The notes under the pieces were generated by a model. That model saw only the letters and a list, made by a program, of their open reading frames with translations, did not search any database and was not told the origin of the DNA. Source: Thelephora terrestris (lineage: Eukaryota; Basidiomycota; Agaricomycetes; Thelephorales; Thelephoraceae). Taken from it: DNA of 64,000 nt. Positions 45,750 through 64,000 of the stretch are shown here, piece by piece. A program made the position numbers and the translations under genes. Location of the stretch: positions 186,001-250,000 of the forward strand of contig WIUZ02000010.1 in NCBI GenBank assembly GCA_015956445.1. The letters are read 5' to 3'. Within the stretch, counting starts at the first letter, position 1. Each line of letters begins with the position of its first letter.

Positions 45750-45850
45750 GGTCGGTTAGCTCAGTTGGTTAGAGCGTGGTGCTAATATGAGGTGGGCTAC
45801 TAAGCCACTCGGTTACGCCAAGGTCGCGAGTTCGAAACTCGTACTGACCA
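45750..45850 (+). tRNA. tRNA-Ile (anticodon AAU) with a 27-nt intron
   Basis: The acceptor stem GGTCGGT pairs with ACTGACC (one G-T), followed by discriminator A at 45850. The D-arm TTAGCTCAGTTGGTTAGAGC, anticodon arm TGGTG-CTAATAA-CGCCA after splicing, and T-arm with GTTCGAAAC are all present. The intron (27 nt, beginning TGAGGTGGGC) interrupts the loop one base 3' of the anticodon, the normal eukaryotic position. A T-run (45853-45859) just downstream is a typical Pol III terminator. Confidence 0.93.
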
Positions 45851-45978
45851 AGCTTTTTTGGCTCGCCGTCGCTACAGTGTACGCACTGATTTCTGCAAAC
45901 TGTCAAGCACCTCGTATCCTGTCTACCAACTCCTATTCGTGTCTGGCGGCACGATGGGTGCCTCCATGGGATCACGCA

Positions 45979-47700
45979 ATGAGCCGTCATTTCTCCGCCA
46001 GAACCATTCCGCCTTCTCTACGTCACACCTCCATCTACTCGCTCATGAACAAAGTCAAAGACCAACCTTTACCCTCCTATTCTCCCGCTCCGACCCAACA
46101 GACTACAAAGGGTAACAAAAGGTTGTGGGCCTTCGCCCTGCTTGCAGGGATGCTTGTGTTTACTGTGAATTTCCGTGGCGTTCTCAAGGCTACAACTTGG
46201 AAGCCGTGCGCGGGATTTAGGAAGGGGAGCCTGCACACGAAGCCCAAGTCGCATTTTACACTCCCGTCCGGAGATACGATCCCGAGTGTGGCACTTGGCG
46301 AGTCTGCACCCGATATTGCCTCACTGACTTCCCATTTCATATTAATATACGCTCCAGGTGTGTGGCAAGCCGGAGGAAGGGAACTTGGTGAGGCGGTCAA
46401 GATTGCTTTAGCTGCCGGTTACCGCCATTTCGATGGTGCTTGGGCATACCGTGTACGTACACTTACAGACCTTGGTTGAAAACGGTGGTTGAAATGTCTG
46501 CCCGCAGAATGAACACGATGTCGGAAACGCGATTGTGGAGAGTGGGGTTCCTCGAGAGGATATCTTCATCACGTCCAAAGTACGTGACCTTCGGAAGTTC
46601 GGTTTACCCTATCGCTAACGCTCTTCGTAACAGCTGTGGAACTCGTTCCATGCCCCAGAAGATATTGAAGCAAGCCTGGATGAATCATTGTCTCGCCTCC
46701 GAACCTCGTACTTGGACCTCTACCTCATTCACTGGTGCGTTTTTGATGTCTCTGTCGCCGTTCCCAGCGATGACAAGGAAAGCTCAACAGGCCGATTGCA
46801 TTTAAGAAGGAACCCTACCTCAATGGGAGGATCGAGATTGATGAGGCGTTGACTGCAGACCCCTACCCTACGTGGAAGAAACTTGAAGAATTGGTCGACA
46901 AAGGCAAGATCAGAAATATCGGTGTCAGCAAGTGAGTCCGCGATCCCCTCGCTACTCTGGTTTGGTGCTGACTGTATTGAAAGCTTCAATGTGTGGAGGT
47001 AGGTAGAGGAGAGGAGCATCCACCATTGCCTGACGCCAAACTTGTAGATACGAGAACTTGACTTCCAACCCCCTCAAGTATCGTCCAGCTGTCAACCAGG
47101 TCGAACTCAGCTTCGGAAATCCACAACCGGAATTGCTCGCCGTGCGTACCCGTATTCGACCACCTTCCCGATGCCTAATGAAACACTGGCTTCTATAGTG
47201 GGCTAAGCTTCACGACGTGCTGCTCGAGGCTTATTCTCCACTCGGAAGCAGCAGACAAGTCAAGGAGACCCTTGAACTGCCGATCGTACGTGCCAAAGAT
47301 TGCGCTTGGGACTTGCAGCCCATAATCTCTTTTTTCAGATCAAGAAAATTGCGAAAGAGCTTGGGATTACACCCGCTCAGGTCATAATTTCATGGCACGT
47401 TCAACGTGGAGTCGTCGTCTTGCCAAAGAGCGTGCACGAGGGTAGGATCCGGGAAAACTTCGAGAGTATGTTTCGTGGTCCACTCTTTTCTTTCTTGCTG
47501 CGGGCTGATCACGGCGTGTCCATGTCATAGTTGTGGCCCTGCCGCAGGAAGATTTCGATCTCATTGAACGTGCTGCTGTCTCGAAGGCTCCCCAAAGGGT
47601 TATCAATCCAAGGTTCGTGACGAGCTGCTGACCACGATCATTTGCTGAGCTTCTGGAGCGTAGCAAGGAATGGGGCCTCGACTATGACATCTTCGCGTGA
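45979..47700 (+). CDS. Aldo/keto reductase with N-terminal membrane segment
   Basis: NAD(P)H-dependent aldo/keto reductase. Eleven exons (45979-46297, 46358-46452, 46508-46579, 46634-46734, 46791-46931, 46984-46998, 47048-47141, 47199-47285, 47339-47465, 47531-47612, 47664-47700) sum to 389 codons plus stop. The catalytic tetrad is visible: Asp and Tyr in YRHFDGAWAYRNE, Lys in FITSKLW and His in LYLIHW. The C-terminal cofactor motif is LPKSVHEGRIREN. About 65 residues precede the barrel, with one hydrophobic helix (LWAFALLAGMLVFTVNF), so the enzyme may be membrane-anchored, unlike most cytosolic relatives. Alternatively translation starts at Met-23. The first intron uses a GC donor. Substrate unknown. 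Confidence 0.88.
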
Positions 47701-48257
47701 ACGTCTTGTATGTCCCGGAACTAAGGAGATTACATGCCAACCATCGTTGTCTCTCTTGCTTTTCATGTTTCAAAGTATTTTGTGTTCAGTAGTCTGCATA
47801 TCTAACCGTTCCCCGGTTCTCAAGTTTTCGCCAAAGAATCCTCATCTGTATTCAGCCTCTAGGATAAACTGAGAGCCCTCGCCCGCTGTACGTACACTAC
47901 CTTCGTCCCTTCTGTATACAAAACGTGTTGAGACACGATTACGCACGTGCACCACATGTTCGCATCCACCATCGAGGATGCGGACCGCTGAAGCGCTGAT
48001 GGCTCGCGTGTGACCTTGGTCGCGCTGTCTTTCCATAGAAAGAAACAGGGGGGCTGGCGGCAGAACGAACGATTTCGGAGATTGATGAAATACTTCCGCC
48101 ACGGATGTTTATGTAAATCGTCAGTGACTTCTTCTGCGGATGGCTGTGCTGCGCCACTAGTCGTCCTAGTATCACTAGTAGTAGTATCAGGTTCAGGCCT
48201 TCCCCCGCAGTACGTCCACCACACACCTTCTTCTAACACCTACCACAAACATCGACG
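47701..48257. other. Intergenic, reductase to NLR1
   Basis: 557 bp. The last 60 bp before the NLR1 start (CACACACCTTCTTCTAACACCTACCACAAACATCGACG-like) closely match the 5' leaders of NLR2 and NLR3, so the NLR promoter or leader begins here. The rest holds no gene. Confidence 0.5.
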
Positions 48258-51190
48258 ATGGCTTCAACTTCCCAGGGAGAGAATGGGCGCAATGGCGTTC
48301 GTTCGACGTTGAATGCAGCAGTCGAAGTTATAGGCCTTGCGAAGGATGCCTGCCTCGGTATTCCGCCAGCTCAAGTCGCTTTTGGGATTGCCGGCGCCCT
48401 CCTGACCATGATTAGGGTATGTTTTCCCCTTCCCCTGCGATGCTAGTTTCTGACCCACGCTTGTGCAGGATTCATTGGCCAACCAACAGGCTTTCGTTGA
48501 TCTCGGGCTAGCATGCGCCCGTGTGTGCAAATCTCTTCACTGGGGGCTGAAGGGAAGGCAATTGGGCGATCTCAGCCCGTCAGTGCTGGAGGCGATCGAG
48601 GAGTTGACTACGTGTGTTGAGCCAGCATTCTGAACGCTGAACGGTTCGCTCACTAAGCTCTCAATCCAGAACCCTAGCCGGGATCCAGCGCGAGATTGTC
48701 GTGCTGGGTAAACGAAACGCGGCCTACCAAGCCTTCCACGCGAATGGCGACAAAGATAAGATTGCCAGGTGGAATCGGGAACTCGACAGGATCCGCCAAA
48801 TCTTCAGCGTGCGTTCGATTTTGGCATTTGAAAAGAGCCCCCCTCAGATCAAACTGGAAATCAATAATAACATGCTACTCACGGATGAGCATCTCAAGAT
48901 AATGGCAGGTCCGGAGGATGCCATCGGACCAGGTCAATCAGTGAGTACGCCTTTCTATCCGTCATCGACGAGACGCTGATGGTCCTCGAGACCCAAGACA
49001 GGTCAGTGTTTGTGAAAATCAGAGACCCGTCGCTTATCTTTGCGTAGTGGTTCTCTAGGTGAATCTCCTCCCCCGCCCCCCAGGGTTTGTTTTGGACGTG
49101 ATGAACTGCTTGAGGAGATCGTCGAATTGGCCGAAAACCTCGAACCCGTCGCTCTCATCGGTGCAGGGGGCATCGGGAAAACGTCCATCGCGCTGGCCGT
49201 CCTCCACCACGATCGCGTCAAGGACCGGTTTGGCGATAACCGACGTTTCATCCGCTGCGATCAGTTCCCAGCTTCGTACCTCCATTTTCTCGCCCGAATC
49301 TCCCAAGTTATTGGTGCAGGCGTCGAAAACCCCGAGGATTTGACTCCCTTGCGACCATTGCTGTCCTCAAGGGAGATGATCCTGTTCCTCGACAATGCTG
49401 AATTCATCCTCGACCCGCAGGGGAAGGACTCCCGAAAGATATACACCGTGGTCGAGGAGTTGAGCCGGTTCAAGAACATATGCCTTTGGATCACCTCGCG
49501 CATCACCACTGTTCCCCCACACTGCAAGCGTACAGTCGTCCCTAGACTGTCAGCGGAATCAGCATGCGACATCTTCTATGCCATCCACACCAACGGCGGA
49601 CGATCAGACATTATCAACGAGCTTGTGAGGCAACTAGATTTCCACGCGCTCTCAATCACACTGCTTGCTACCACAGCCGCTCAGAACGTATGGGATCACA
49701 ATCGATTGGCCAGGGAATGGGACGTGAGCCAAGTGCAGGTACTTCGGACACATCCCAACGAGAGCCTGGCTGCAACCATTGAACTCTCACTCGGCTCCCC
49801 GACATTCCGCCAACTCATCCCTTCATCAGGATCCCACCCAATTGAAGTCCCTCCAACGAAATTCCAGAGACTTGCTGCTTCCCCAACATTCAGCAAATTC
49901 ATCCCTTCTCCGATCCTCTGCAAACTTGATCCTTCTCCAATCCCCCGCAGAATCCCCCCCAGTGCTCGTGAACTGCTTGAAGTCGTCGCATTCTTTCCAC
50001 AAGGGATCGACGAGAAAAACCTCGACTGGTTATTTCCCACGACCCCCAACAGAAAGAACATCTTCGACAAATTCTGCATGCTCTCTTTGACACACCGAAA
50101 CAACGGGTTCATCACGATGTTGGCTCCGATCAGAGACTATCTCTGCCCCCCCAATCCGGAATCTTGTCCCCTCCTCTGTGCAACCAAGGATCGTTACTTC
50201 AGCCGGTTGTCAGTTCACCTCGATCCTGATGAGCCCGGATTCCGAGAAGCGGAGTGGATCAAGTCTGAGGATGTAAACGTTGAGCATTTGCTCGACGTCT
50301 TTACTTCAATTTACCCGAGCGCTTGGGAGGTCTGGGATGTTTGCCATCACTTTGTGGATCACCTCTATTGGCACAAGCCACGGCACACTTTACTGGGGCC
50401 GAAGATTGAAGGCCTCCCCGATGATCATCGCTCCAAGGCTGAATGCCTGTTTAGGCTCTCGAAGTTGTTTGGATTGGTCGGAAATCACGCAGAACAAAAG
50501 CAACTGCTTATCCATACCTTGACTCTCGAGAGGGAGAAGGGGGATGGTGTTGGGGTTGCTCAGACATTACTGTTCCTATGTGATGTCAATCGGATACTTG
50601 GATTATACGCGGAAGGAATAAAGCAAGCAGAAGAAGCATTGAAAATCTACAAACGGCGCAGGAAAACAATCGATCAAGCGCAATGTTTGAATCAGCTCGC
50701 TTGGTTGCTGCTCGAGGACAAACAGCTCAACGCTGCAGAAAACGCGGCATCACGTGCGATTGATCTGGAGAAAGGCCAAGAATTCCACCTCTGCGAATCT
50801 CATGGTGTCCTTGGCGTGGTATGTCATCGCAGGGGAGAGAAAGAGAAGGCGTTGGAACATTTGCAGACAGCCCTCCAAATCGCGTCCCGCTTCAATTGGC
50901 AAAATGCACTATTTTGGATTCATTATTGTATGGCGGAGCTATTCTCGTCCAAAGGCGAGTCGGGCACTGCGAACACCCACATTCAACAGGCCAAATCCCA
51001 CACGGTCGGCAACACATACAACCTGGGCCTCGCGATGGAATTGCAAGCTCGGGTTTGGTTCCAGCAACATAGGCTAGAAGATGCGAGAACCGAGGGTTTG
51101 GCCGCATTGGAGATCTACGAGAGGCTTGGGGAGTCGAAGGATGCAGGGGAATGCCGAGAACTCCTCCAAAAAATCGAACAAGTAAACTAG
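48258..51190 (+). CDS. NLR-like protein 1: helical N-domain, NB-ARC/STAND NTPase, TPR
   Basis: Six exons (48258-48416, 48469-48611, 48670-48808, 48848-48940, 48973-49001, 49048-51190) sum to 901 codons plus stop. Residues 1-180 form a helical domain (IPPAQVAFGIAGALLTMIRD, then ELTTTLAGIQREI) resembling the MLKL/HeLo-like four-helix bundle that heads many agaricomycete STAND proteins. A Pro run leads to the NTPase: Walker A GAGGIGKTS at 226-234, Walker B REMILFLDNAE near 300, and a sensor-like ICLWITSRITT. After a 27-bp-repeat linker comes the winged-helix-like block LLEVVAFFPQGIDEKNLDWL, then about eight TPR-like helices to the end. By analogy with fungal NLRs it may sense a ligand and trigger heterokaryon-type or defence cell death; this is inference. 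Confidence 0.85.
49795..49968 (+). repeat. Degenerate 27-bp in-frame repeats in NLR1 linker
   Basis: Units such as SPTFSKFIP, SPILCKLDP and SPIPRRIPP, each 27 nt, lie between the NTPase and the winged-helix-like block. The first unit (SPTFRQLIP) belongs to the family backbone. Equivalent tracts are at about 55240-55413 (NLR2) and 63043-63216 (NLR3). Confidence 0.75.
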
Positions 51191-53687
51191 TCTATCCCAG
51201 ACAAATCGGATCAGGCAGTGGTGAGTTTTCTGGACACGATGCTGCCTCCCATCCTTACTAACTCACGTCCCATCTCCAAGCTTATTGTTTAATCCTTAGC
51301 ACACCATCTGGCATTTTCTGGATCGAGGTTCTGAACAGATGCCTCGTTCCCAGACGCAGCATTCATCACCCTCTTTCTCTCAAGCACCCTGTCCATCATA
51401 CCTGTACATCATTCTATGTGTTATTATTTTGCTGTGTTCATCGCCGGCATGTATCATCTTTAGGTGGTCCCATTTTCTCTCCCGGTCTTCTTTCTTCTTC
51501 CTTCGGTCCTGGGGCCACCAATCCCAACCGCACCTGTAAACCTCCCGACCTACGATAGGTACTAGCACATGGAAATTCCTTTGGTCTGGCTCAAGCGCGA
51601 GGCCTATCTTAGTTGCATCGTGTCATCAGGCTGTCGGTTGGTGTCCACGCGTCCGGGCATTCAACGGACAGAGTTGACACACCGGCCTCATGCGCGCGGG
51701 ATGCTGCCAATCAGTCCCGTGGAAAGAAAAAGCGAGCCTCAGAGTTGATTTGTAGCTCACGTATGTCCGGCATTTGAAGCCGTTCGTTTTTCAGGCATCT
51801 TCTCTGCGAATGTCCCACGGAGTCTGCAGATCAAAAATCCATTTGCATTTCGAGAGCACGGGTGTCTGGGTACTGAGAGTCGACTCGCGGTAGCTTGTGC
51901 TGTAGGGTACGAATAAATATGTATATGTTATCGTTTCGCAGCATCGACACCTCACAATTTGGATCGCGGTTACATGATGGAAAGTCCATGACTAAACAAA
52001 GCGCGCGTCAGCATCCATCGTAACGCTCGGATCTGATCGCAGGCGAAACAATCGGCGGAGGGCGGGTGCTCGAACTCACTTTGCTTCCCTATGATACGCC
52101 ATAGATTCCTTATCGTCACCAGAGAACTTCCTGACCCCAGTCAATTGGAACACAGATCGCAGTACGCCTAGCGTGGCTAGCTCGGGCCGTGTCCGTTGAT
52201 GGATCTCGTCTCGGAATTCCATCGAGGCTGTCCAGAGTCTACACGTCGGATGAGGGAAGGGAGGAGGGATGGGTCGTGGTCGTTGATCAAAGTCACTTCG
52301 CAGCAGAGTGCTTCCTCGCCTGGACCTTTAAGTCCTAGCTGGGTCTTGCTATCGAGCTCTTCGTGAGCTTCGTTCTCAGAAACCAGTTGTTGGAGCTTGA
52401 ATGCCAGAAACGAAACAAACGGTTAGCCAAATCGAAAAACCGAGTTGACGTGGAGACAGGACGCACCAACTCAAAGAACCCGACTTGTTTCATGAACTTC
52501 GGACTGCCGCACAAAAGAACAAACTTTGTTTCGCGGAAATTCTCAACCAACACACGCGCAGAGTCCTCAGGCAACTCGAGCAACTGGAGGAGGCTAATAG
52601 CTGGCGATGTGACCGAACTTCAGATGGGGGACCGCTGGTGAAATACCCCCTTAGGATATCCTGGGGAGTACGCCCCTCTGCGACACTCTCCTTAGCATCT
52701 TCGATAGCGCAACGAGAGGGAAGAGGGCCGTTCAGAATCACGAGCAACGTGGCAGGAACGTCGCGGGGGCTCGGCAGCTGTTGAGGACATAGGAAGCAGT
52801 CGCCCTCGCTTCTGGGAGGAGGGCGTGGATCCGTAGAGGCGAACGTCTCGATGAACCACATCGGTAAAGCGGATCCTCTTGTACGTGCGACTTGAAGCTT
52901 GAGGGCCTGGGGTTGAATGGAGTGCCCAGCTGCGACTTGGCCATCGGGGATTTGGGTCTTCTCCGTAAGATTCGGCACCCGAGCTCAGAAAACTTGGTGT
53001 TGCCTTTGAGAATCAAGCCGGCTAGGCCATTGAACCGCACGACTGCAAAGCCCGTGAGTCGCAAGGGGCTCGGACACGGAACAGAAACTCACCAGCTCCT
53101 TATTTCCTTTCGCTTTTTGTAGTATCGCGCCGATACCGGGACTGAACCATTCCAAAATTTCCTGACGTCCAAGTTCTAATTCTTCTGAAAAGATATTCAA
53201 GAGTGGAGGGTGTTCAGAAGTCACGACTCTTGCTACAGCGAACGCGCTCCTACTTTCTATACTGAACCGGAGGAAAATTTGGTCTTGGAGCAAGGCGAAG
53301 ATATGGATCCGATCATTCTCTCTAGAACTGATCCGACGAGTGAACCATTCCTCGTAGAGGAGTTGAGCCTCGTCGTAGGCGTACGGGGTGATTGGAACGT
53401 ATGAAGCAAACGAAAGTGCGCGCGTCTCGCAGTCGTCTCAGAGTGAGCCATTCGCCCAGTAGCCCTGGATTACCGTTAAAAACGGTGATTTACGAATAGA
53501 CTACGACCAAATCCGAACGCTCCGAGTCTCTCAACGAACGTTTCAGTGGCCAGTTACTAGGGTTTTTGCTCGTTGGATGGCTGTGCTTACACGAGGCGCG
53601 CGGAGGAGTCACTGTCTTCCTATTACACCTTTCCGCGCAGCATGTGTGCCACACACCCTTTCCTCACACCTACCACAAACATCGACG
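51191..53687. other. Intergenic NLR1-NLR2, made mostly of duplicated flanks
   Basis: 51.19-51.72 kb matches the 3' flank of NLR2 (56.7-57.18 kb). From about 52.77 kb to the NLR2 start it matches 60.53-61.51 kb, including the exon-like segment that heads the PP2C gene there. 51.75-52.7 kb has no recognised content. No intact gene. Confidence 0.6.
52770..53687. repeat. Duplicated segment upstream of NLR2 (copy A)
   Basis: About 0.9 kb, collinear with 60530-61511. Matches include TGCCCAGCTGCGACTTGGCCAT (here TGCGACTTGGCCATCGGGG), GACTGCAAAGCCCGT, TCGCAAGGGGCTCGGACACG and CCATTCCAAAATTT. On the minus strand it contains the same MAKSQLGT start as the chimeric PP2C, but the frame then diverges and is broken. 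Confidence 0.75.
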
Positions 53688-56600
53688 ATGGCTTCAACTT
53701 CCCAGACACAGAAAGGGCGCGATGGCGTTCGCTCGATGCTAAGTGCAGCCATCAAAATTATAAGTGTTGCGAAACTTGCCTGCCACGGCATTCCGCCAGC
53801 TCAGGCTGCTTTTGGGATTGCCGGCGACCTCTTGACCATGATTAGGGTATGTTTCCCCCTTCCTCTGCGATGCTTAGTTTCTGATCCACGCTTGTCTAGG
53901 ACTCATTGACCAACCAACAGGATTTTGTCGATCTTGGACGAGCATGCGCCGATGTCTGCAGGATTCTCGACCGGGGACTGAAGGGAAGGCAATTGGGCGA
54001 TCTCAGCCCATCAGTGCTGGAGGCGATCGGAGAGTTGACTACGTGGGTCGAGCCAGCATTCTGAACGCCGAATGATTTGCTCAATGAACTCTCAATCCAG
54101 AACCCTGGCCGGGATCCAGAGCGAGATCGTCAAACTGGGTAAACGAAACGCGGCCTCTCAAGCCGTCGACGCGAATAGCGACAAGGATAAGATTGTCAGG
54201 TGGAACCGGGACCTCGATCGGATCCGCCAAATCTTTAACGTGCGTTCAGTCAGTTCTGCTCCCTGTGTGGCATCTGATAAAAACCCCCCTCAGATCGAAC
54301 TGGATATCAATACCAATATCCTAGTCACGGATATCCATCGCAAGATGATGGCAAGTCCGGAGGATGCCATCGGACAACGTCAATCGGTAAGTACAGCCTT
54401 CTATTCGACATCGGCGAGACGCTGATGGTCCTCGAGACTCATGCCAGGTCAGTATTTGTGAAGGCCCGGAGGCCCATCGCTTACCTTTGCGTAGTGTTAC
54501 CCTAGGAGAATCTCCTCCCCCTCCTCCCAGGGCCTGCTTCGGACGTGACAAACTGATTAAGGAAATCGTCGGTCTCGCCGAAAACCTCGAACCCGTCGCT
54601 CTCATCGGTGCAGGGGGCATCGGAAAAACGTCCATCGCGCTGGCCGTCCTCCACCACGATCGCGTCAAGGACCGGTTTGGCGACAACCGACGATTCCTCC
54701 GCTGCGATCGGTTCCCACCTTCGTACCTCCACTTTCTCGCCCGGATCTCCCAAGTTATTGGTGCGGGCGTCGCAAACCCTGAGGATTTGACTCCCTTGCG
54801 ACCATTTCTATCTTCGAGGGAGATGATCCTGTTCCTTGACAATGCTGAATCTATTCTCGACCCACAGGGAGCGGATTCCCAGAAGATAAAAGCCGCGGTG
54901 GAGGAATTGAGCCGGTTCGAGAACATTTGCCTTGGGATTACCTCGCGCATCACCACTGTCCCCCCACACTGCAACCGTCCAGTCGTCCCCACACTGTCGG
55001 CAGAATCGGCATGCGACATCTTCTATGCCATCTACACCAACGGCGGACGATCAAACGTCATCAGCGACCTTCTCAGGCAACTAGATTTCCACGCACTCTC
55101 AATCACACTGCTTGCTACCACGGCCGCTCAGAACATGTGGGATTGCGATCGATTGGCCAAGGAGTGGGATGCACGCCGAGTGCAGGTACTTCAGACACCC
55201 GACAAAGACAGCCTGGCTGCGACAATTGAACTCTCACTCGGCTCCCCGACATTCCTCCAACTCGTCCCTCCATCAGAACCCCACCGACCCGTCCCTCGAT
55301 CAAAATTCCACCGACTTGCTGCTTCCCCAGCCTTCAGCAAGTTTATCCCTTCTCCGATCCTCCGCAAAGTGGACCCTTCTCCAATCCCCCGTGAAATCCC
55401 CCCTAGTGCCCGTGAGCTCCTCGAAGTTGTTGCATTCTTTCCGCAAGGGATCGACGAAAAAAACCTCGACTGGTTATTTCCCACGACCCCCAACAGAAAG
55501 GACATCTTTGACAAATTCTGTGTTCTCTCTTTGACGCACCGAAACAACGGGTTCATCACAATGTTGGCTCCGATCAGAGACTACCTCTGCCCCCTCGATC
55601 CGGAATCCTCCCCCCTCCTCTGTGCAACCAAGGATCGTTACTTCACCCGGTTGTCAGCTTACCTTGATCCTGATGAACCCGGATTCCAAGAAGCGGAGTG
55701 GATCAAGTCCGAGGATGTAAACGTTGAGCATTTGCTTGATGTCTTCATTTCAATCAACCCGGGCGCTTGGGAGGTCTGGGATGCTTGTGAACACTTTATG
55801 AACCACCTCTATTGGCACAAGCCACGGCACACTTTGCTGGCGCCAAAGATTGAAGGCCTCCCCGATGGTCATCAATCTAAGGCTAATTGCTTGTTTGAGC
55901 TCTCGACGTTGTTTAGATCGATCGGAAATTGGGCAGAAGAAAAGCGACTACTTGTTCATACTTTGACGCTCGAGAGGGAGAAGGGGGACGATGTTTGGGT
56001 TGCTCGAACATTGAGGTTCCTATGCGATGTAAATCGGATGCTTGGACTTTACAAGGAAGGAATCCAACAAGCGGAGGAAGCATTGGAAATCTATAAACGG
56101 AGCAGGGACACGTTCAATCAAGTGCAATGTTTGAATGCGCTCGCTTTCTTGTTGCTTGAGGACGAACAACTCGACGGTGCAGAAAACGCGGCATCACACG
56201 CGATCGATCTAATCCCGGAGAAAGGCCAAGAATTTCAGCTCTGCCAATCTCATCTAGTCCTTGGCTTGATATACCGTCACATGGGAGAGAAAAAGAAGGC
56301 GTTGGACCATTTCGAGACAGCCCTCCGAATCGCATCCCGCTTCAATTGGCAACATTCACTATTTTGGAATCATTACGCCATGGCAGCGCTATTCTCGTCC
56401 GAAGGCGAGTTTGGCACTGCAAACACCCACGTTCAACAAGCCAAATCCCACACGGTCGACAACGCATACAATCTGGGTTCCGCAATGGGATTGCAGGCTC
56501 TAGTTTGGTTTCAGCAACGTAAGCTGGAAGAGGCGAGATCCGAGGGTTTGGCCGCACTGGAGGTCTATGAGAGGCTCGGAGCGGCGAAGGATGTTGGGGA

Positions 56601-56715
56601 TTGCAGAGAACTCCTCCAAGAAATTGAACAAGCGATCGAAAGCCAGTCTGTCTCGGGCAAACCAGATTCCAGTGGTGAGTTTTCCGTACGCGATGCTGCC
56701 TCCCATCCTTGCTGA
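53688..56715 (+). CDS. NLR-like protein 2: helical N-domain, NB-ARC/STAND NTPase, TPR
   Basis: Paralogue of NLR1 with the same six-exon plan (53688-53846, 53900-54042, 54101-54239, 54294-54386, 54419-54447, 54495-56715), 927 codons plus stop. The helical N-domain reads IPPAQAAFGIAGDLLTMIR. Walker A is GAGGIGKTS, Walker B REMILFLDNAE, the sensor-like strand is ICLGITSRITT, and LLEVVAFFPQGIDEKNLDWL follows the repeat linker. TPR-like helices run to about residue 895. The C-terminus extends beyond that of NLR1 (SQSVSGKPDSSGEFSVRD); an alternative is a final intron from a GTGAGT donor at 56674, ending a few codons later. The NTPase exon is nearly identical to NLR3. Confidence 0.85.
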
Positions 56716-57084
56716 CCCCATCTATAAGCTTGACGTGTAGCACCTGGTGCACCGTCTGGCGTCAACTTCCTGACCAAGGAATCCCGGATCCGGACAAGTG
56801 CCTCATTCCCGGGCGGAACATTTGTCACTCTTTCTCCTAGACACCCCGTCCATCACACCCGCACATCGTTCCATCTCTTATCATTTTACCGTGTTCATCG
56901 CTGGCATGTATCATCTTTAAGTAGACCTATTTTCTCTCCTGGCCTTCTTCCTTCTACCTTCCATTCCGAGGCCACCAATGCCAGCCGCACCCGTAAACAA
57001 TCCGACCTGCGATGGTGAGCAGCACATTGAAACCCTTTTGGTCTTACTGCAAGCGCGAGGCCTGTTCTTAACTACATCGTGTGA

Positions 57085-57411
57085 TCAGGTTGTCGGTCGA
57101 TGTCCGTGCGTCCCGGCATTCAACAGACAGAGTTGGCGCACCGGCCTCATGCGCACGGGATGCTGCCAACCAGTGAGGTGGGTCGCCTTGGAGACGACAT
57201 TGTCCCCAGCCTTGTTCTTGAGAAGAAACGGGGTTTCGTCCTGTCTTCGGATAGCTAAGCAAGCATCAATGAACCTCGGGTCGAGGTTAAGTTGCTCGGG
57301 GATGGACACTGCTGATGAGAGCGTAGGAAAAAGAACAGAAGGATCATTGTGCGATGAGACAACCAAGAAAATATAAAGTAATGCGCTTGTGAAGATAACG
57401 AGAAGCAGCAA
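57085..57411 (-). CDS. Possible small membrane-anchored protein or gene fragment
   Basis: 108-codon open frame starting with a hydrophobic segment (MLLLVIFTSALLYIFLVV) followed by a soluble stretch DPRFIDACLAIRRQDETPFL. The 3' end runs into the sequence shared with the NLR1 3' flank, so the frame may be a truncated gene fused to duplicated DNA. I do not recognise a family. Confidence 0.25.
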   Translation of the reverse strand: MLLLVIFTSALLYIFLVVSSHNDPSVLFPTLSSAVSIPEQLNLDPRFIDACLAIRRQDETPFLLKNKAGDNVVSKATHLTGWQHPVRMRPVRQLCLLNAGTHGHRPTT

Positions 57412-57466
57412 GATGGCGATATTTCAGGGGGTGCGCAGCAGCGCACTAGGCGACGGGGGTAGTCTG

Positions 57467-57530
57467 GAATCCAGCCTCAAATTTAGAGGCGAGGAGGACG
57501 CAATTCGGAAGGGCACGATACCCATAGACG
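57467..57530. repeat. Dispersed repeat, copy 2 (see 21.81-21.87 kb)
   Basis: Near-identical to 21808-21870 over about 60 bp, including GGCGAGGAGGACGC, despite being 36 kb away and in unrelated surroundings. Confidence 0.6.
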
Positions 57531-59360
57531 GGGGTACATGTATGTCCTCTGTGAACCGATCGCGAGACTCTCAGCTAATGTCGCTGAATTGATACAGTGA
57601 CTCAATGGGCCCTCTCGTCAAACTCAACAAATTGTACAAGGCCATCGTCACCAAGTGACTCCTTGTCGAATCTTGCGCCCCCCACGCTGTCAGCGTGCCA
57701 GTGCATCAACAATCGCGTTCAGTTCGCTCTCTTCCCAGTCCTTGTTCAGACTCAGGTTCGTGCTACCCATTTTCTATGTTTTCCTGATGCACCGCAACCC
57801 TGGGACACAAAACGAACAGTCCATCGCTCCGTTCCTCATCATTTTACGAGTCGTCAACCAGAGAGCATCAATAGACGATTATCACCGCCATTAGGAGCGT
57901 CGGTTCAATTCATTTCCAGAGCCAGGGAGACTCAACGAGCGCCAGTGATACACTTCCCGAAGGAGATTCAACGAATGGTACGTTTGAACATACCCGTCGT
58001 GAGTTCGGTGATGCCCCAGCATCGATATACCTCCGCACGCCGGTCGAGACTCTATCCAATCTCCTCTCCGCCAGCCCCCGTTCTCATTCACTCTTAATGT
58101 TGGAGCAGGCTGCCGCTCACATCAACCGTCTCACCGCTTCTGAATCCCAATTCAATTTTTACGCATATTCGCGGCTTAGCATCATACCAATTTCCATCAC
58201 ATCCATCACTCCCCTCCCCTGTATTTGTCGTCACAACCAATCATCGAGCATTCGCTTGACGATGGACGTCTGCCCATCCACCCCAAAATCCATTCTCGGA
58301 AGCCAGCTGCTCGTCCGCCGACGTAATTTTTGTGCCAGCATGCGTTCAAGCGAGATGCCGTTGATTAGGCTTCGAGCGGCACGCCCGTGAAAACTGTGTG
58401 GGTGGGTAACACCCACAGCCACTCCAGTAGCTCCTCGTGTACTTACACGCTGCAAGCCTTCCCCGGATCATGGGCCTATGGCAGTACGTGCTCCTGCTTC
58501 GTATATCGATTGTTGTCGCCCTACATTGGACGTTATCTAATAATCACACATGCGTCGATACAAGATCTCCGCTCCTGGGGCAGGTTGCTTACCTGCATCT
58601 ACACACGGCCAGTCCCACCCCGATGTCCTATCAATTAACTCCGGAATCGGTGTATGCAATGCGGAAACTCTAGATATTGAAGAGTAATTATCATCTTGCG
58701 ACCATATCCTCTAATAGACATGATAATACCGGTCGTGCGACAAGAACAGCTGGAAATCGTGAAGGCAAACCCCGCCCTCCCGCCCCCACCCCTGGCAGAG
58801 TTTGCGATCAGCCCAGGCCGATTATGATATCCGTCCTTCTGTTTAGCGGTCTGGGAGTGGCACCGGGCTCCTGCAAACCTGGAAAGGTGTTTTGGTATTG
58901 GATGATAGGGCATGATATTGACTGGAGACAGGAAAGGGAAATACACGAGTGAAGAGCGAGAGAGAAACACCGAGTGAGGAGCGAGGGAAGAAAATGGTAC
59001 ATGGGCAACCTAGGCAGGACAACTATGCAGCGAAGAACACACAAGTGGATAAAAGCGACAGTATGACCTAGTACACACATATAAATATGAAACGGGGGAG
59101 AGTGGGATGATCGCAAAGCACGGGGGGAGAGGCGGCGGAAACGAAGAGAGAATCCACACCGTGCCGGGCGGATGAGAGTGATTAGGTCAAAGGCAAGAAG
59201 AGGTAACATGAGGTCAGGCAAAAATGAACAGAAGAGCCCAGGGGAGGGGGGAATAATGGTGTCAAGTCCACGCGTACAAGATCTTCCTGCCTAGGACAGA
59301 AGTCGAGAAGGCAAAAAAGAGCAAGGGAAAGGCTCAATGGGACAAGGTAGATTGTTCCTT

Positions 59361-60685
59361 TCATCCCCTGAGCGGGTCTTCACTCGTATCCATCAAGCCC
59401 TCCACCTTCACGACAGGTGCAGGCTGATCTGATCCCGGCATGCTCTCGAACTGATGTGGCCGCTGCTCCATCGTGGTTCCGTTCGGTGTTGGTTTCGGTG
59501 GTGGGGGTGTTTCGGATTTCTGTGGTGCGGGTAATTTCGAAGCCAAATCTTGACCAGCATCGGCCTTGACATCGTCGGTGCCCTCGGCCTTCCCGTTTAG
59601 CGAAAGCTTCGTTGTGCCGTCTCCATTCTTACGATCGAGAGCTTCCAATTTTTCTTTGAGGGACCCTCGCGCTGGATTGCCTGTCGCTGGACCATTGTTT
59701 CTTCCGACTCCATACGTGCGATACGAATTGCCGAAGAACGATGGACCGGGACCGTCCATGTCGTCGTCACTGTCTTCGGACTCGGTGTCGTCACCAAACA
59801 TCAGGGGACCGTTGTCTGACATGACACCCGAGCCGGGGTTGAATGAGATACCACCGGTACCTCCCATGAACCGCGTGAAACCAAAGCCAGGTGATCCAGC
59901 AGCATCCCCAAGCCGTGCTTGTCTGTCCTTTTCCCGAGCCTCCTCCGCGGCTCTCTTCGCCTTGAACGCCGTCAGCCTGCTCTGTGAATACAGTTGGGGC
60001 AGCGTCTCTGGCGTCGGGTGACCGACGCGGTTCTTTACGCGCTGGGTAACCCATTCTCTCCAATCGTCCTTGGTCCTGCCATGCAGAATAGCAACGACAA
60101 GCATCGTCATGTTATCGCATCCGATACCAGCTCCGGATTCAGTGTCGGGTGCCAGGCAAAGTTCGCAAATGATCTCCGCAACTTCTGAAAGTTCCTTTCC
60201 TTCCGAAATCAACAGCCGAACCGCGTCGACACACTGCTGCGATGTCAGACAGTCCCAGATGCCTGTACACGAGTTGGGTACGGTCCGCAGAGGAGACAGC
60301 GTACAAGACACTAACCATCACAAGCGATGATGAGGAATTCATCCTCTTCCGTTATCTTGTGTTCGATGACCTCGGGGTTTGCAGTGATGACTTGGTCCTC
60401 GGCCGAAACGTTGGCGTTTTTCTCATACTCGAAGTCGCCCAAAGCCCGAGCCAACGCGAGATTGCCTGATGGATGAGATGGTTGGAATCCGTGTGCGTCT
60501 GCGACTGGGATCTGATCGTACCGTTCGGCAGCGGTTGAGGACATAGGAAGCAGTCGCGTTCGCTTCTGGGAGGAGGGCGTGGACCCGGAAACGTGAACGT
60601 CCCGAATAACCACATCGGAAAAGCCGATCTTCTTGTTCGTGCGAGGACCTGGAGTTGATTGGGTGCCCAGCTGCGACTTGGCCAT
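59361..60685 (-). pseudogene. Chimeric, N-terminally truncated PP2C-type phosphatase
   Basis: The C-terminal half of a Ptc2/Ptc3-like PP2C. Exon 60685-60316 encodes GNLALARALGDFEYEKN, QVITANPEVIEHKITEEDEF and ACDG; exon 60262-59361 encodes IWDCLTSQQCVDAVRLLI, GIGCDNMTMLVVAILHG and a long acidic/Pro-rich tail ending EDPLRG. The first about 150 residues of a normal PP2C, including the DGHGG metal-binding motif, are absent. In their place is a 75-residue unrelated lead (MAKSQLGTQSTPGPRTNKK) encoded by DNA that also lies upstream of NLR2. The frame is open across the junction, which coincides with a remnant splice acceptor (CCATCAG before GCAATCTCGC). A catalytically dead product or a pseudogene is expected. 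Confidence 0.8.
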
Positions 60686-61511
60686 CGAGAATTTGCGTTT
60701 GTTCCGTAGGATTCAGCAACCGAGCTCGGAAAGCTTCGTGTTTCCTTTGTGAATCGAGCCGGCTAGGCTGGTAAACCATACGACTGCAAAGCCCGTTAGT
60801 CGCAAGGGGCTCGGACACGGACAGAAACTCACCAGGGGCTGAAACGTGCTCGATTCCCCGTCCTTCCACCCTCACTCGCTGTCGTCTCCCTATTTCCTTC
60901 CGCTTTCTGGAGTATCGCACCGACACCGGGACCGAGCCATTCCAAAATTTACTGGCGTCCAAGTTCTCATGCTTCTAAAGATATTCAAGGGTGGAAGGTG
61001 TTCAGAACTCGCGACCGGAGGCTGGCCTAGCCATTCGCCATTACTGGTGATCCCCTAGATTAAGCGAACGCGCTCCTATGCTGAACTGGAGGAAATCCGG
61101 TTTTGAAGCAGGTGATCGCGACGACGAAGATATGGATCCGGCGATCGAAGTTCTCTCCAGAACTGATCCGGCGAGTCTAGTAGCCGTTCTTCGTAGAGGA
61201 GTTGATCCTCGTCGTAGGCGTACGTGGTGACGGTGGGACGCATGAAAGTCCGCGTGTCCCACTAGTCGTCCCAAAGTGAGTCGTTCGGCCAGTAGCCCTG
61301 AATTACCGTTAAAATTGGCGGTTTTTGTACAGAGCACCAACACCAACCAATGCCGACCGCTCCGAATTCCTCAACGAGCGTTTAAGTACCAAGTTCATCG
61401 CATGGCTATGCTTACACGAGGCGCGCCACAAGTCATCCCATCCGCTTCGGGCCTTTCCGTGCAGCAAGTATACCACACACCCTTTCCTCACAGCTACCAC
61501 GATCGTCAACG
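60530..61511. repeat. Duplicated segment upstream of NLR3 (copy B)
   Basis: Collinear with 52770-53687. It contains the first part of the chimeric PP2C exon (to about 60530) and the NLR3 leader. PP2C and NLR3 are therefore head-to-head over a duplicated promoter-bearing segment. No further gene is seen in 60.69-61.51 kb. Confidence 0.75.
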
Positions 61512-64000
61512 ATGGCTTCAACTTCCCAGAGACATGATGGGCGCGATGGCCTTTCTTCAGCGTTAGACACTGACATCCAAGTCATAACTCGCGCGAGAGA
61601 CACCAGTGGTATCCCACCAGCTCAAGATGCGTTCGACTCCGCGGGTGCCCTGCTGACCACAATCAGAGTACGTTCCATCCTACTCCGCGGTTGCGAGCTC
61701 CAGGCTCACATCCACTCAGGACCCGATGTTCAACAAACAGGAATATGTTGATCTTGGGCGATTGTGCGCCGGCGTATGCAGAGCTCTCGACCGGGGGTCG
61801 AAAGGCAGACGGTTGGACGAAGTCAGTCCGTTGGCGCTCGAGGCAATTGGAGAGCTGACCACGTGGGTTGAACTGGTGTTGTGGCCGTCGCGTTTTTTGC
61901 TCACCGAGTTCTCAATGCAGAACTGTGGCCACAATCCAGAGGGAGATCGTCAAGCTGGGCAAACGAAATGCAGCCTCTCAGGTTCTTCACGCAAAGAACG
62001 ACAAAGATAACATTGCCGCTTGGAGCCGGGACCTCAATAGGATCCTCCACATCTTCAGCGTACGTTCAGTCAGTCCCGCTTGGCATTTGATAACAACTTC
62101 TCTCAGACCGAACTGTCGATCATGCTGGTCGCAGATGGCCATCGAAACACGTCGACAGGTCAAGGAGGTGCTATTGACCAGCATCGAACAGTGAGTACGG
62201 CTTTCTATTCGTCGTCAACGAGACGCTGATAGTCTTCGAGACTCAAGCCAGGTCGGTGTTTGTGGAACTCGGAGGCCCATCACTTACCTTTGCGTAGTGT
62301 TACTCTGGGAGAATCACCTCCCCCGCCTCCCAGGGCCTGCTTCGGACGTGACGAACTGATTGTGGAAATTGTCGGTCTCACCGAAAACCTCGAACCCGTC
62401 GCTCTCATCGGCGCAGGGGGCATCGGAAAAACGTCCATCGCGCTGGCCGTCCTCCACCACGATCGCGTCAAGGACCGGTTTGGCGACAACCGACGATTCC
62501 TCCGCTGCGATCGGTTCCCACCTTCGTACCTCCACTTTCTCGCCCGGATCTCCCAAGTTATTGGTGCGGGCGTCGCAAACCCTGAGGATTTGACTCCCTT
62601 GCGACCATTTCTATCTTCGAGGGAGATGATCCTGTTCCTCGACAATGCTGAATCTATTCTCGACCCACAGGGAGCGGATTCCCAGAAGATAAAAGCCGTG
62701 GTGGAGGAATTGAGCCGGTTCGAGAACATTTGCCTTGGGATTACCTCGCGCATCACCACTGTCCCCCCACACTGCAACCGTCCAGTCGTCCCCACACTGT
62801 CGGCAGAATCGGCATGCGACATCTTCTATGCCATCTACACCAACGGCGGACGATCAAACGTCATCAGCGACCTTCTCAGGCAACTAGATTTCCACGCACT
62901 CTCAATCACACTGCTTGCTACCACGGCCGCTCAGAACATGTGGGATTACGATCGATTGGCCAAGGAGTGGGATGCACGCCGAGTGCAGGTACTTCAGACA
63001 CCTGACAAAGACAGCCTGGCTGCGACCATTGAACTCTCACTCGGTTCCCCGACATTCCGCCAACTCGTCCCTCCATCAGAACCCCACCGACCCGTCCCTC
63101 GATCAAAATTCCACCGACTTGCTGCTTCCCCAGCCTTCAGCAAATTTATCCCTTCTCCGATCCTCCGCAAACTGGACCCTTCTCCAATCCCCCCCGCAAT
63201 CCCCCCCAGCGCCCGTGAGCTCCTCAAAGTCGTCGCATTCTTTCCGCAAGGGATCGACGAGAAAAACCTCGACTGGTTATTTCCCACGACCCCCAACAGA
63301 AAGGAAATCTTCGACAAATTCTGCGTTCTCTCTTTGACGCACCGAAACAACGGGTTCATCACGATGTTGGCTCCGATCAGAGACTACCTCTGCCCCCTCG
63401 ATCCAGAATCCTCCCCCCTCCTCTGTGCAACCAAGGATCGTTACTTCACCCGGTTGTCAGCTTACCTTGATCCTGATGAACCCGGATTCCGAGAAGCGGA
63501 GTGGATCAAGTCCGAGGATGTAAACGTTGAGCATTTGCTTGATGTCTTTACTTCAATTGATCCGGGCGCTTGTGAGGTCTGGGATGTTTGCTGTCACTTT
63601 ATGGACCACCTCTATTGGCACAAGCCACGGCACACTTTGCTGGGGCCAAAGATTGAAGGCCTCCCCGATGGTCATCAATCTAAGTCTAATTGCTTGTTCA
63701 AGCTCTCGAAGTTGTTTGGATTGATTGGAAATCGGGCAGAAGCAAAGCGACTACTTATTCATACTTTGACGCTCGAGAGGGAGAAGGGGGATGATCTTTG
63801 GGTTGCTCGAACATTGAGGTTCCTATGCGATGTCAATCGGTTACTTGGACTTTACACGGAAGGGATACAGCAAGCGGAGGAAGCATTGGAAATCTATAAA
63901 CGGGGCAGGGACACGATCAATCAAGTGCAATGTTTGAAACAGCTCGCTTGGTTGTTGCGTGACGACGAACAACTCGACGGTGCAGAAAACGCGGCATCAC
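61512..64000 (+). CDS. NLR-like protein 3, cut by window end
   Basis: Third paralogue. Exons 61512-61667, 61720-61862, 61921-62059, 62107-62190, 62223-62251 and 62298 to beyond 64000 follow the plan of NLR1 and NLR2. The helical N-domain (IPPAQDAFDSAGALLTTIR, then EIVKLGKRNAASQVL) is clearly more divergent, and exon 4 is 84 rather than 93 nt with little similarity. The NTPase (Walker A GAGGIGKTS, Walker B REMILFLDNAE), repeat linker, LLKVVAFFPQGIDEKNLDWL block and TPR-like helices are open to the last base. The stop lies outside the window. Confidence 0.82.

Follow-up and report, generated by a model that had tools for sequence, protein, structure and literature searches.

The presence of three NLR paralogues on the same strand of one window (the whole stretch of 64,000 nucleotides analysed here) raises the question of how such a row of genes arises in a fungus, and what it might serve to recognize. 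Among fungi, the diversification of immune receptors is best studied in ascomycetes, and there genome defence hinders tandem duplication. The reading that we favour, at a probability of roughly three in four, is that the genes belong to a large family of intracellular fungal NLRs amplified in tandem, probably a recognition cluster which diversifies its ligand groove and would trigger membrane killing of the MLKL type. As such, the window genes may control non-self recognition and cell death. A single locus here combines amplification head to tail, with a breakpoint that can be traced, exchange of modules among copies and variation focused on a predicted ligand groove, and both ligand hunting and killing assays of the N-domain become directly testable.

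Gene models and the amplified array

All three genes follow one plan of six exons, of 159 or 156, 143, 139, 93 or 84 and 11 nt, with a long last exon (Table 1). The exon models bear out the sequence-only reading, which had proposed same-strand paralogues with an identical exon plan; gene 3, checked on the contig, is complete there (locus L011, 917 aa). The 11-nt microexon is a prediction from reading frame and splice sites, and the resulting plan fits 16 of the 17 copies of the subfamily to which the window genes belong. A single intron spanning the interval between exon 4 and the NB exon was rejected, because donor and acceptor phases mismatch in the copies read.

Table 1. Features of the NLR locus, in window positions
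Feature	Coordinates	Strand	Remarks
NLR gene 1 (N-type B), 895 aa	48258..51190	+	exons 48258-48416, 48469-48611, 48670-48808, 48848-48940, 48991-49001 (11 nt, inferred), 49048-51190
NLR gene 2, 921 aa (N-type B, with an NB almost the same as in type-A copies)	53688..56715	+	exons 53688-53846, 53900-54042, 54101-54239, 54294-54386, 54437-54447, 54495-56715
NLR gene 3 (N-type A), cut by window end	61512..64000	+	exons 61512-61667, 61720-61862, 61921-62059, 62107-62190, 62241-62251, 62298-beyond 64000
Gene 2 N-domain, exons 1-5, predicted MLKL_N-like helical effector domain	53688..54447	+	Pfam and PDB profile matches
Gene 2 NB/STAND module, Walker A GAGGIGKTS and Walker B-like MILFLDNAE	54496..55242	+	98% identical to gene 3 NB
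C2-subfamily insert before WHD, proline-rich 'SPxF' repeats, predicted disordered	55243..55401	+	alignment and model
Gene 2 six TPRs and capping helix, hypervariable concave positions	55879..56652	+	AF2 model, variability analysis
Duplicated scaffold	53628..57174	+	83.4% identity with 48198-51715
Duplicated scaffold	60525..64000	+	82.6% identity with 52771-56197
Truncated PP2C phosphatase 3' half, inside duplication unit	59364..60685	-	homology to longer PP2C of array edge stops at 60526

The window lies on contig C2 (C5, C12, C17, C42 and C48 denote other contigs of the same genome). Fourteen of the 17 C2-type copies are found on one contig, in two opposed tandem arms, and the array, which extends along it from about 80 to 314 kb, is larger than first described. 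The unit duplicated head to tail mostly measures 7.4-7.9 kb and contains PP2C pieces, some of them broken. The shared flanks and duplicated scaffold of the initial description were recovered as three segment pairs, at 81.6-83.4% identity: the two of Table 1 and a third flank-sharing pair, in which 48186-50753 matches 61440-64000 at 81.6%.

When the 702-aa exon was compared with the genome, 17 copies (gene 1 included) matched almost end to end at 78% identity or more and 46 further scored copies at lower identity, so a chance origin of the likeness is excluded. The whole family amounts to at least 105 loci, 79 of which fall in 19 clusters; two clusters hold 8 related copies each and another holds 10. 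Copy number, near-identical duplicates and the mosaic genes described below all back the earlier notion of an expanding cluster. Tandem TTAGGG x4 occurs 45 times in the genome, never at contig starts and paired inside contigs, and speaks neither for nor against a subtelomeric array.

Plant NLRs carry LRR and CC or TIR domains where the window genes have TPR and an MLKL_N-like domain. Tandem arrays, gene conversion and a hypervariable ligand surface are shared with the resistance-gene clusters of plants (partly in PMC12258605). Clustered NLR genes, with gene conversion proposed as a diversifier, are likewise known in Sordariales (PMC12258605); as far as the sections of that paper drawn on here go, those clusters comprise two to five NLRs (16/272 of paralogous copies), in contrast to the 8, 8 and 10 related copies, and the mosaics, seen here.

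N-domain and nucleotide-binding module

The N-domain, described at first as helical, had been set beside HeLo/MLKL-like domains. The MLKL part of this comparison finds support, pointing to the basidiomycete MLKL-like type: 15 of 20 paralogue N-domains, a set to which the N-type of gene 3 belongs, match Pfam MLKL_N (PF22215) at E<=1 in HMMER (best 5.5e-6). The HeLo part finds none: HeLo, HeLo-like and Goodbye are absent from the 20 Pfam families matched by these 20 domains at E<=1, and HeLo and Goodbye were discarded as names for the domain, with zero HMMER profile matches in 20 members. In genes 1 and 2, a Pfam profile search returned MLKL_N at E 0.0088 and 8.6e-4, both below the curated cut-off; the N-part of gene 2 alone reaches E 9.6e-5 (22.4 bits against a cut-off of 27) and the first member of the set 22.1 bits, again below 27. 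A few of the 20 domains weakly match unrelated families, the best being CorA, at E 2.2e-4, in one.

A PDB profile search gave seven matches at E<=10, and six of these are to MLKL N-domains (E 0.003-0.02), with 6zvo at the top; in the MLKL N-domain, the homologous part takes up the greater share of the second half. The protein begins MASTSQ... at its N-terminus. A fragment (exons 2-3 read through the 51-nt intron as contiguous translation, with exon-3 rows only in the alignment) is predicted to fold as all helical, at pLDDT 69, with a short helix at 82-87 before the last one; compared with the PDB it is a generic helical bundle, with no match at E<=0.001 and no MLKL among the 50 matches listed.

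The closest known counterparts are the basidiomycete BaMLKL NLRs of Wojciechowski et al. 2022 (PMC9815663), in which a domain homologous to the executioner domain of human MLKL also precedes the nucleotide-binding domain; the portions of that work used here show the MLKL structure 6zvo and describe a four-helix bundle, with a short helix hM between h3 and h4 and an extra N-terminal helix hG. There, domains are catalogued and assigned by CDD/HHblits, while the present assignment rests on HMMER and PDB profile search, and concerns one genome with a tandem array, groove-focused variation and module exchange.

It is conceivable, but unlikely, that the N-domain is an oligomerisation or docking module only, recruiting a separate executor, with solo N-domain genes as its partners. 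Such a role would suit the modest MLKL_N scores and locus L042 (C17:380500-384500), an N-domain lacking NB-TPR in that 4 kb, on a contig with no locus among the NB-TPR matches listed; it is opposed by the extent of the homology to the MLKL N-domain and by the same four-helix core modelled for basidiomycete MLKL-like NLR domains in the cited parts of PMC9815663.

The Walker A and Walker B-like motifs of Table 1, reported beforehand, were found in all three genes, and G41, G43, K44, T45 and L114-D115-N116 are invariant across 22 aligned NB-TPR exons, as in P-loop NTPases. Family profiles score lower than their thresholds: genes 1 and 2 reach 17.0 and 15.1 bits with NB-ARC (cut-off 23.5), 23.9 and 21.9 bits with nSTAND1 (cut-off 27.1). 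Elsewhere in the genome, 15 of the 16 NB-ARC matches listed exceed the cut-off, none of those in the window. Nucleotide switching could differ from the usual, because what we take to be the MHD-like motif reads M-L-A-P and, at the presumed GxP-like motif, Ala of the C2 subfamily replaces the Pro of C5 copies.

An AF2 model of the NB-TPR part of gene 2, weak between NB and TPRs, has as its top Foldseek match 6mfv, a STAND protein with TPRs (E 5e-8, with a whole-alignment TM-score of only 0.29-0.32). TPR-like ends, noticed in the sequence, agree with TPR_12 scores of 51.4 and 58.3 bits in the two genes scanned, 1 and 2 (cut-off 30.1), and with six TPR hairpins in the gene 2 model. Taken together, profile matches support the architecture first put forward, an MLKL-like helical N-domain followed by a STAND NB module and TPRs.

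Variation in the TPR groove

Ligand positions were taken as 2, 5, 9, 12 and 13 of each TPR, the full published set being 2, 5, 9, 12, 13, 33 and 34 (PMC1261162). Among 16 C2 paralogues, pN/pS at the five positions, over six TPRs, is 1.44 (bootstrap 1.18-1.78) and 1.23 for the full set; the remaining TPR sites give 0.42 and the NB 0.26. None of 20000 permutations was as variable as the full set. The same positions are the most variable in the 14 copies of the C5 cluster (0/20000 permutations), with a groove pN/pS of 1.14 (bootstrap 0.93-1.49) that is not clearly above 1. In both clusters the NB value is 0.25-0.26, which shows a retained function. This focus of hypervariability on the groove, along with the mosaics, supports the idea of a recognition cluster, and names about 30 residues (the five positions in six TPRs) as targets for mutation or swapping.

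Fungal NLRs with NB-ARC, TPRs and highly conserved internal repeats likewise have variable sites, and sites under selection, on the concave side of the TPRs (Dyrka et al. 2014, PMC4986451). In the parts of that study considered, repeats of one protein are near-identical and vary in number, while gene 2 has six TPRs with a mutual identity of only 6-26%, and variation was measured between paralogues; internal repeats of at least 85% identity are absent from gene 2, and shuffling of repeat copies is thus unsupported in that gene.

From the hypervariability of the groove, and by homology to STAND proteins and MLKL, a course of events may be proposed. The six-TPR superhelix would bind a ligand in its hypervariable concave groove; binding would free the NB module for nucleotide swap and oligomerisation; the clustered N-terminal MLKL-like bundles would then attack membranes, killing or walling off the hyphal compartment.

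The family might instead be a non-immune STAND one, regulating for example development or nutrient use, whose expansion was neutral and whose groove varies through relaxed constraint. We consider this improbable, with little weight to be given to it: the C5 groove ratio is compatible with it, but the C2 interval lies above 1, in two clusters the variation, taken over all six TPRs, centres on the ligand positions, and the NB ratios indicate a retained function. A better candidate, though still on the unlikely side, accepts the same receptors and changes their target, which would be the self of other strains (heterokaryon or somatic incompatibility) and not a microbe, a virus or an altered host protein; compatibility types would then be set by the groove alleles. 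Diversifying groove sites fit this, as do the incompatibility roles of fungal NLRs and HeLo/MLKL-type effectors treated in the cited part of PMC12881547. Against it, the family of at least 105 loci exceeds the number in known allorecognition systems.

Mosaic genes and module exchange

Within the favoured recognition cluster, new specificities may arise by head-to-tail duplication of the unit, mostly of 7.4-7.9 kb, and by diversifying substitution at groove residues, patterns of both being seen in the sequence, and ectopic gene conversion or unequal crossing-over may carry N-domains, NB modules and parts of the TPRs from one copy to another. Patterns expected of the latter are seen as well. N-domains fall into two types, A and B, 66-74% identical as DNA and both present in both opposed arms, yet the NB modules to which they are joined reach 99% identity. 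An NB tree constrained to the N-type split is worse by 207.6 lnL (AU p 3.9e-9), which rejects a shared history. Genes 2 and 3 agree at 66 silent polymorphic codons in a row (221-438; 0/1000 permutations), and 6 of 105 pairs pass at global p<0.05. In gene 2, both the stretch upstream of the B-type N-domain and the NB module that follows it resemble A-type copies, the outcome to be expected of a cassette exchange of exons 1-5. We tentatively suggest, as a possibility well short of an even chance, that the array acts as a combinatorial receptor generator, in which the N-terminal effector classes A and B, both of old origin, stay distinct while exchange renders NB modules nearly identical inside groups of each arm and reshuffles the effector, engine and sensor parts; the two classes might co-assemble as partners.

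Copies on small contigs were considered as alleles and rejected as such: C48 and C42 align with C12 along 3.2 and 3.8 kb at 99.94 and 99.97% identity, and since the differences are gaps only, with no mismatches, they represent assembly redundancy, not haplotypes. The assembly thus contains redundant small contigs, 0.03-0.06% apart. These, the broken PP2C pieces, an in-frame TAG in one of the 17 C2-type copies (L022) and a stop within the matched stretch in two of the 14 C5 copies could suggest decaying duplicates or misassembly, the copies being pseudogenes or the mosaics assembly chimeras. Such an origin is very improbable: 16 of the 17 C2-type copies keep one exon plan, with the frame intact despite differing intron lengths, mosaics recur in both arms, and most pairs differ far more than the redundant contigs do.

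Gene plan, family size and array layout

The analysis establishes the architecture of this NLR-like family, its expansion, a focus of variation on the TPR groove and the mosaic make-up of its genes. Window 48258-64000 corresponds to 234-250 kb of contig C2, in a genome of 40.6 Mb in 60 contigs, and holds three genes starting with a common MASTSQ leader (see table). A sequence-only reading had given these paralogues one exon plan, and this holds well beyond them: a six-exon model, in which five exons of 159/156, 143, 139, 93/84 and 11 nt precede a long final one and the introns measure 52-54, 51-58, 39-55, 49-50 and 46-47 nt, preserves the frame in 16 of the 17 copies of the C2-type subfamily, despite intron length changes not divisible by three. 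L022, which is among these 16, is cut short by a stop. The existence of the 11-nt exon is predicted from phases and splice sites. In the 17th copy, L024, the intron-2 donor is altered; its N-domain was recovered via spliced alignment, with intron places unchanged. Where an N-domain was recovered in other subfamilies, introns again fall close to or exactly at residues 53, 101 and 147, with phases nearly always 0, 2, 0; L001, L028 and L032 yielded no N-domain in this comparison.

Features in the window and at related loci
Feature	Position	Strand	Basis or remark
Gene 1, start	48258	+	MASTSQ leader
Gene 2 (L012), start	53688	+	MASTSQ leader
Gene 3 (L011), start	61512	+	MASTSQ leader
SPxF proline-rich insert	55243-55401		A1 columns 250-303
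PP2C phosphatase, C-terminal half	59364-60685	-	Pfam PP2C
tRNA gene	45750-45850		Rfam, 50.1 bits
Open frame	45787-46479	same as tRNA gene	
L056	C2:316200-319700		right edge of C2 plus arm
L055	C2:468200-470000		inverted-repeat element
L042	C17:380500-384500		MLKL_N-like N-domain gene
L041/L057	C12:985900-997000		NLR

The gene 1 last exon as query, with 63 of 270 candidates scored, retrieved 17 close copies, of which 16 lie on C2 and one on C5 (78-82% identity, gene 1 itself excepted), and 46 further copies of lower identity. Together with searches using a C5 member (65 of 245 candidates scored) and a C58 member (74 of 233), plus an NB-ARC family search, the union comprises at least 105 distinct loci, 103 reached via family proteins and two (C8:134579 and C58:873307) via the NB-ARC profile only; the C48 locus among them stands in for a C12 locus, of which it is a redundant duplicate and which enters the count in no other way. 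Both small contigs, C48 and C42, are redundant assembly pieces: they differ from C12 by gaps only, being 99.94 and 99.97% identical to it (L057/L058, L059/L060). Nineteen clusters, defined by neighbouring starts less than 40 kb apart with intervening genes not counted, contain 79 of the 105 loci, the largest having 8, 8 and 10 members. The C2 array consists of two opposed arms: a minus-strand arm of six copies (80-133 kb) and a plus-strand arm of eight (235-312 kb), with 8 of the 12 within-arm intervals measuring 7.4-7.9 kb.

Four of eight scanned upstream open frames (window 1-47000) match Pfam families of ordinary genes, namely a metal P-type ATPase, a RING protein, AIM3/BBC1 and a Glycos_transf_3 protein. 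The tRNA gene overlaps the start of a same-strand open frame.

N-domain and NB-TPR module

For the N-domain (exons 1-5), both HeLo and MLKL-like domains had been considered, and HMM comparison points to the second: of 20 paralogous N-domains, 15 match MLKL_N at E<=1, with a best value of 5.5e-6, and neither HeLo nor Goodbye families occur among the Pfam matches listed for the 20. In gene 2, residues 80-172 of the N-part match MLKL_N with an E of 9.6e-5 and 22.4 bits, against a curated cut-off of 27. Each of the other 19 Pfam families listed matches one or two members, the best being CorA (2.2e-4). Compared with the PDB, the 20-member profile gave seven matches at E<=10, six of which are MLKL (E 0.003-0.02; aligned residues 88-171). 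A fragment of the N-domain was predicted to be all-helical, with a pLDDT of 69 (five models, 42-69) and no significant PDB match. The domain resembles the basidiomycete MLKL-like NLR domains described in the excerpt of PMC9815663, which shows the same MLKL structure, 6zvo.

An MLKL_N-like N-domain gene at L042 has no NB-TPR within the fetched stretch, and the 94-aa downstream reading matches no Pfam family; this gene is possibly a stand-alone effector.

Walker motifs are invariant across the 22 aligned NB-TPR exons (alignment A1); NB-ARC scores of genes 1 and 2 lie under the curated cut-off. Within A1 residues 196-210, a GxP-like motif is HPL in L032, L039 and L040 and HAL in the other 19 rows; at residues 356-359, the MHD-like motif is MLAP. 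The SPxF insert lies directly before the WHD in the C2 subfamily, varies in length from copy to copy and is predicted to be disordered; L026 has a shorter version. The AF2 model of the gene 2 exon (mean pLDDT 67.7, pTM 0.50) has ten-residue pLDDT means of 64-87 over residues 21-160, values under 60 from residue 160 to about 400, WHD included (under 40 across most of the C2-specific insert), and at least 85 in 20 of 26 blocks of the six TPRs and cap. The top PDB match to this model is 6mfv, a TPR-bearing STAND protein, and most others listed are TPR proteins.

Groove variation and mosaic genes

As excerpted from PMC1261162, TPR variability peaks at positions 2, 5, 9, 12, 13, 33 and 34, all on the concave face, peptide contacts in HOP being positions 2, 5, 6, 9, 12 and 13; this variability holds for TPRs at large, so part of the pattern is expected in any TPR family with differing ligands. 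Among 16 C2-type copies, 47% of pairwise comparisons show a difference at the seven positions and 17% do so elsewhere in the TPRs, a variability of the seven matched by none of 20000 random site sets. Their pN/pS is 1.23, compared with 0.42 in the rest of the TPRs, 0.26 in the NB and 0.19 in the WHD. For the five helix-A positions (2, 5, 9, 12, 13), chosen post hoc after the variability data were inspected, the ratio reaches 1.44 (bootstrap over sequences 1.18-1.78, jackknife 1.39-1.58), and 1.23 (1.03-1.53) when position 6 is included; bootstrap intervals serve here as a guide and no strict test, because pairs recombine and have common history. In the separate C5 cluster, variation among 14 copies again concentrates on the same positions (0 of 20000), with ratios of 1.07 for seven and 1.14 for five (0.93-1.49). 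The focus on groove positions is therefore replicated in C5; a ratio clearly above 1 is established for C2 only. Podospora NLRs, in the excerpt of PMC4986451, likewise vary under selection on the concave TPR face, but their repeats are nearly identical, whereas identity among the six gene 2 TPRs is 6-26%.

N-domains of 16 copies fall into two types, A (nine) and B (seven), with 66-74% DNA identity between them; L024 is B-like. NB modules cut across this division: gene 3 (A), gene 2 (B) and L014 (A) share NB modules of 98% identity; among L018-L022, which include both types, NB identity is 96-100%, with 99% in the A/B pair L019/L020, while L009, L017, L023 and L025 diverge (87-91%). In 200-column steps, genes 2 and 3 are 72-86% identical upstream, 58-79% in leader and N-domain, 90-100% in the NB, 84-94% in the TPRs and 89-99% in the 3' flank. 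The gene 2 upstream region is more A-like, with 71-90% identity to A-type L011 and L014, against 39-58% to L009, L017 and L020 and a rather close 60-83% to L023, the four B-type copies compared. Silent polymorphic codons (225, from 15 copies) were put to a permutation test whose column shuffling ignores rate differences along the gene. Genes 2 and 3 share an unbroken stretch of 66 such codons (codons 221-438), which none of 1000 permutations attained; global p<0.05 was obtained for 6 of 105 pairs. Forcing the A/B split on the trees was rejected for NB (207.6 lnL, AU 3.9e-9) and TPR (153.8 lnL), and not rejected for the N-domain. L019 and L022 are identical across N and NB, then 86-94% across TPRs. 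Ectopic conversion or unequal crossing-over would explain these mosaics, conversion being favoured where the middle disagrees with both flanks.

A ligand, which may stem from another strain, a microbe or a virus or be altered self, would bind in the TPR groove; a nucleotide switch and oligomerisation would be involved, and an MLKL-like bundle would kill via the membrane. Such a system is of an already known kind (fungal NLRs, BaMLKL N-domains, TPR sensors), and the excerpt of PMC3192844 reports NB-ARC and TPR domain expansions in the basidiomycete Piriformospora indica. What stands out is array size, together with visible module exchange: Sordariales clusters, as excerpted from PMC12258605, are smaller, with two to five NLRs, and few (16 of 272) are paralogous. 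Gene structure and domain type suggest that the source is a fungus and a basidiomycete. No basidiomycete array of such kind was found in the literature by title or abstract start, subscription journals being mostly uncovered.

Duplication unit and neighbouring elements

PP2C pieces occur at six places, each within or adjoining the C2 plus arm (all 11 candidates scored). The upstream side was read at two of them: it is missing from the window copy, while L056 has frames with N-terminal PP2C motifs, as judged by eye. The two are 97.7% identical, and homology ends at window 60526, within the PP2C gene; on the simplest reading of these two places, one end of the duplication unit would lie inside PP2C, the longer gene representing the old border.

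At the NLR L041/L057, about 7 kb separates exon 2 (near 986.4 kb) from exon 3 (near 993.7 kb), as would follow from an insertion into intron 2. Inside contig C2, L055 is an inverted-repeat element of about 1.7 kb with outward telomere-like repeats, CCCTAA at the left and TTAGGG at the right. Four TTAGGG units in tandem have 45 exact matches genome-wide (22 forward, 23 reverse), many similarly paired outward; the element itself was read at L055 only.
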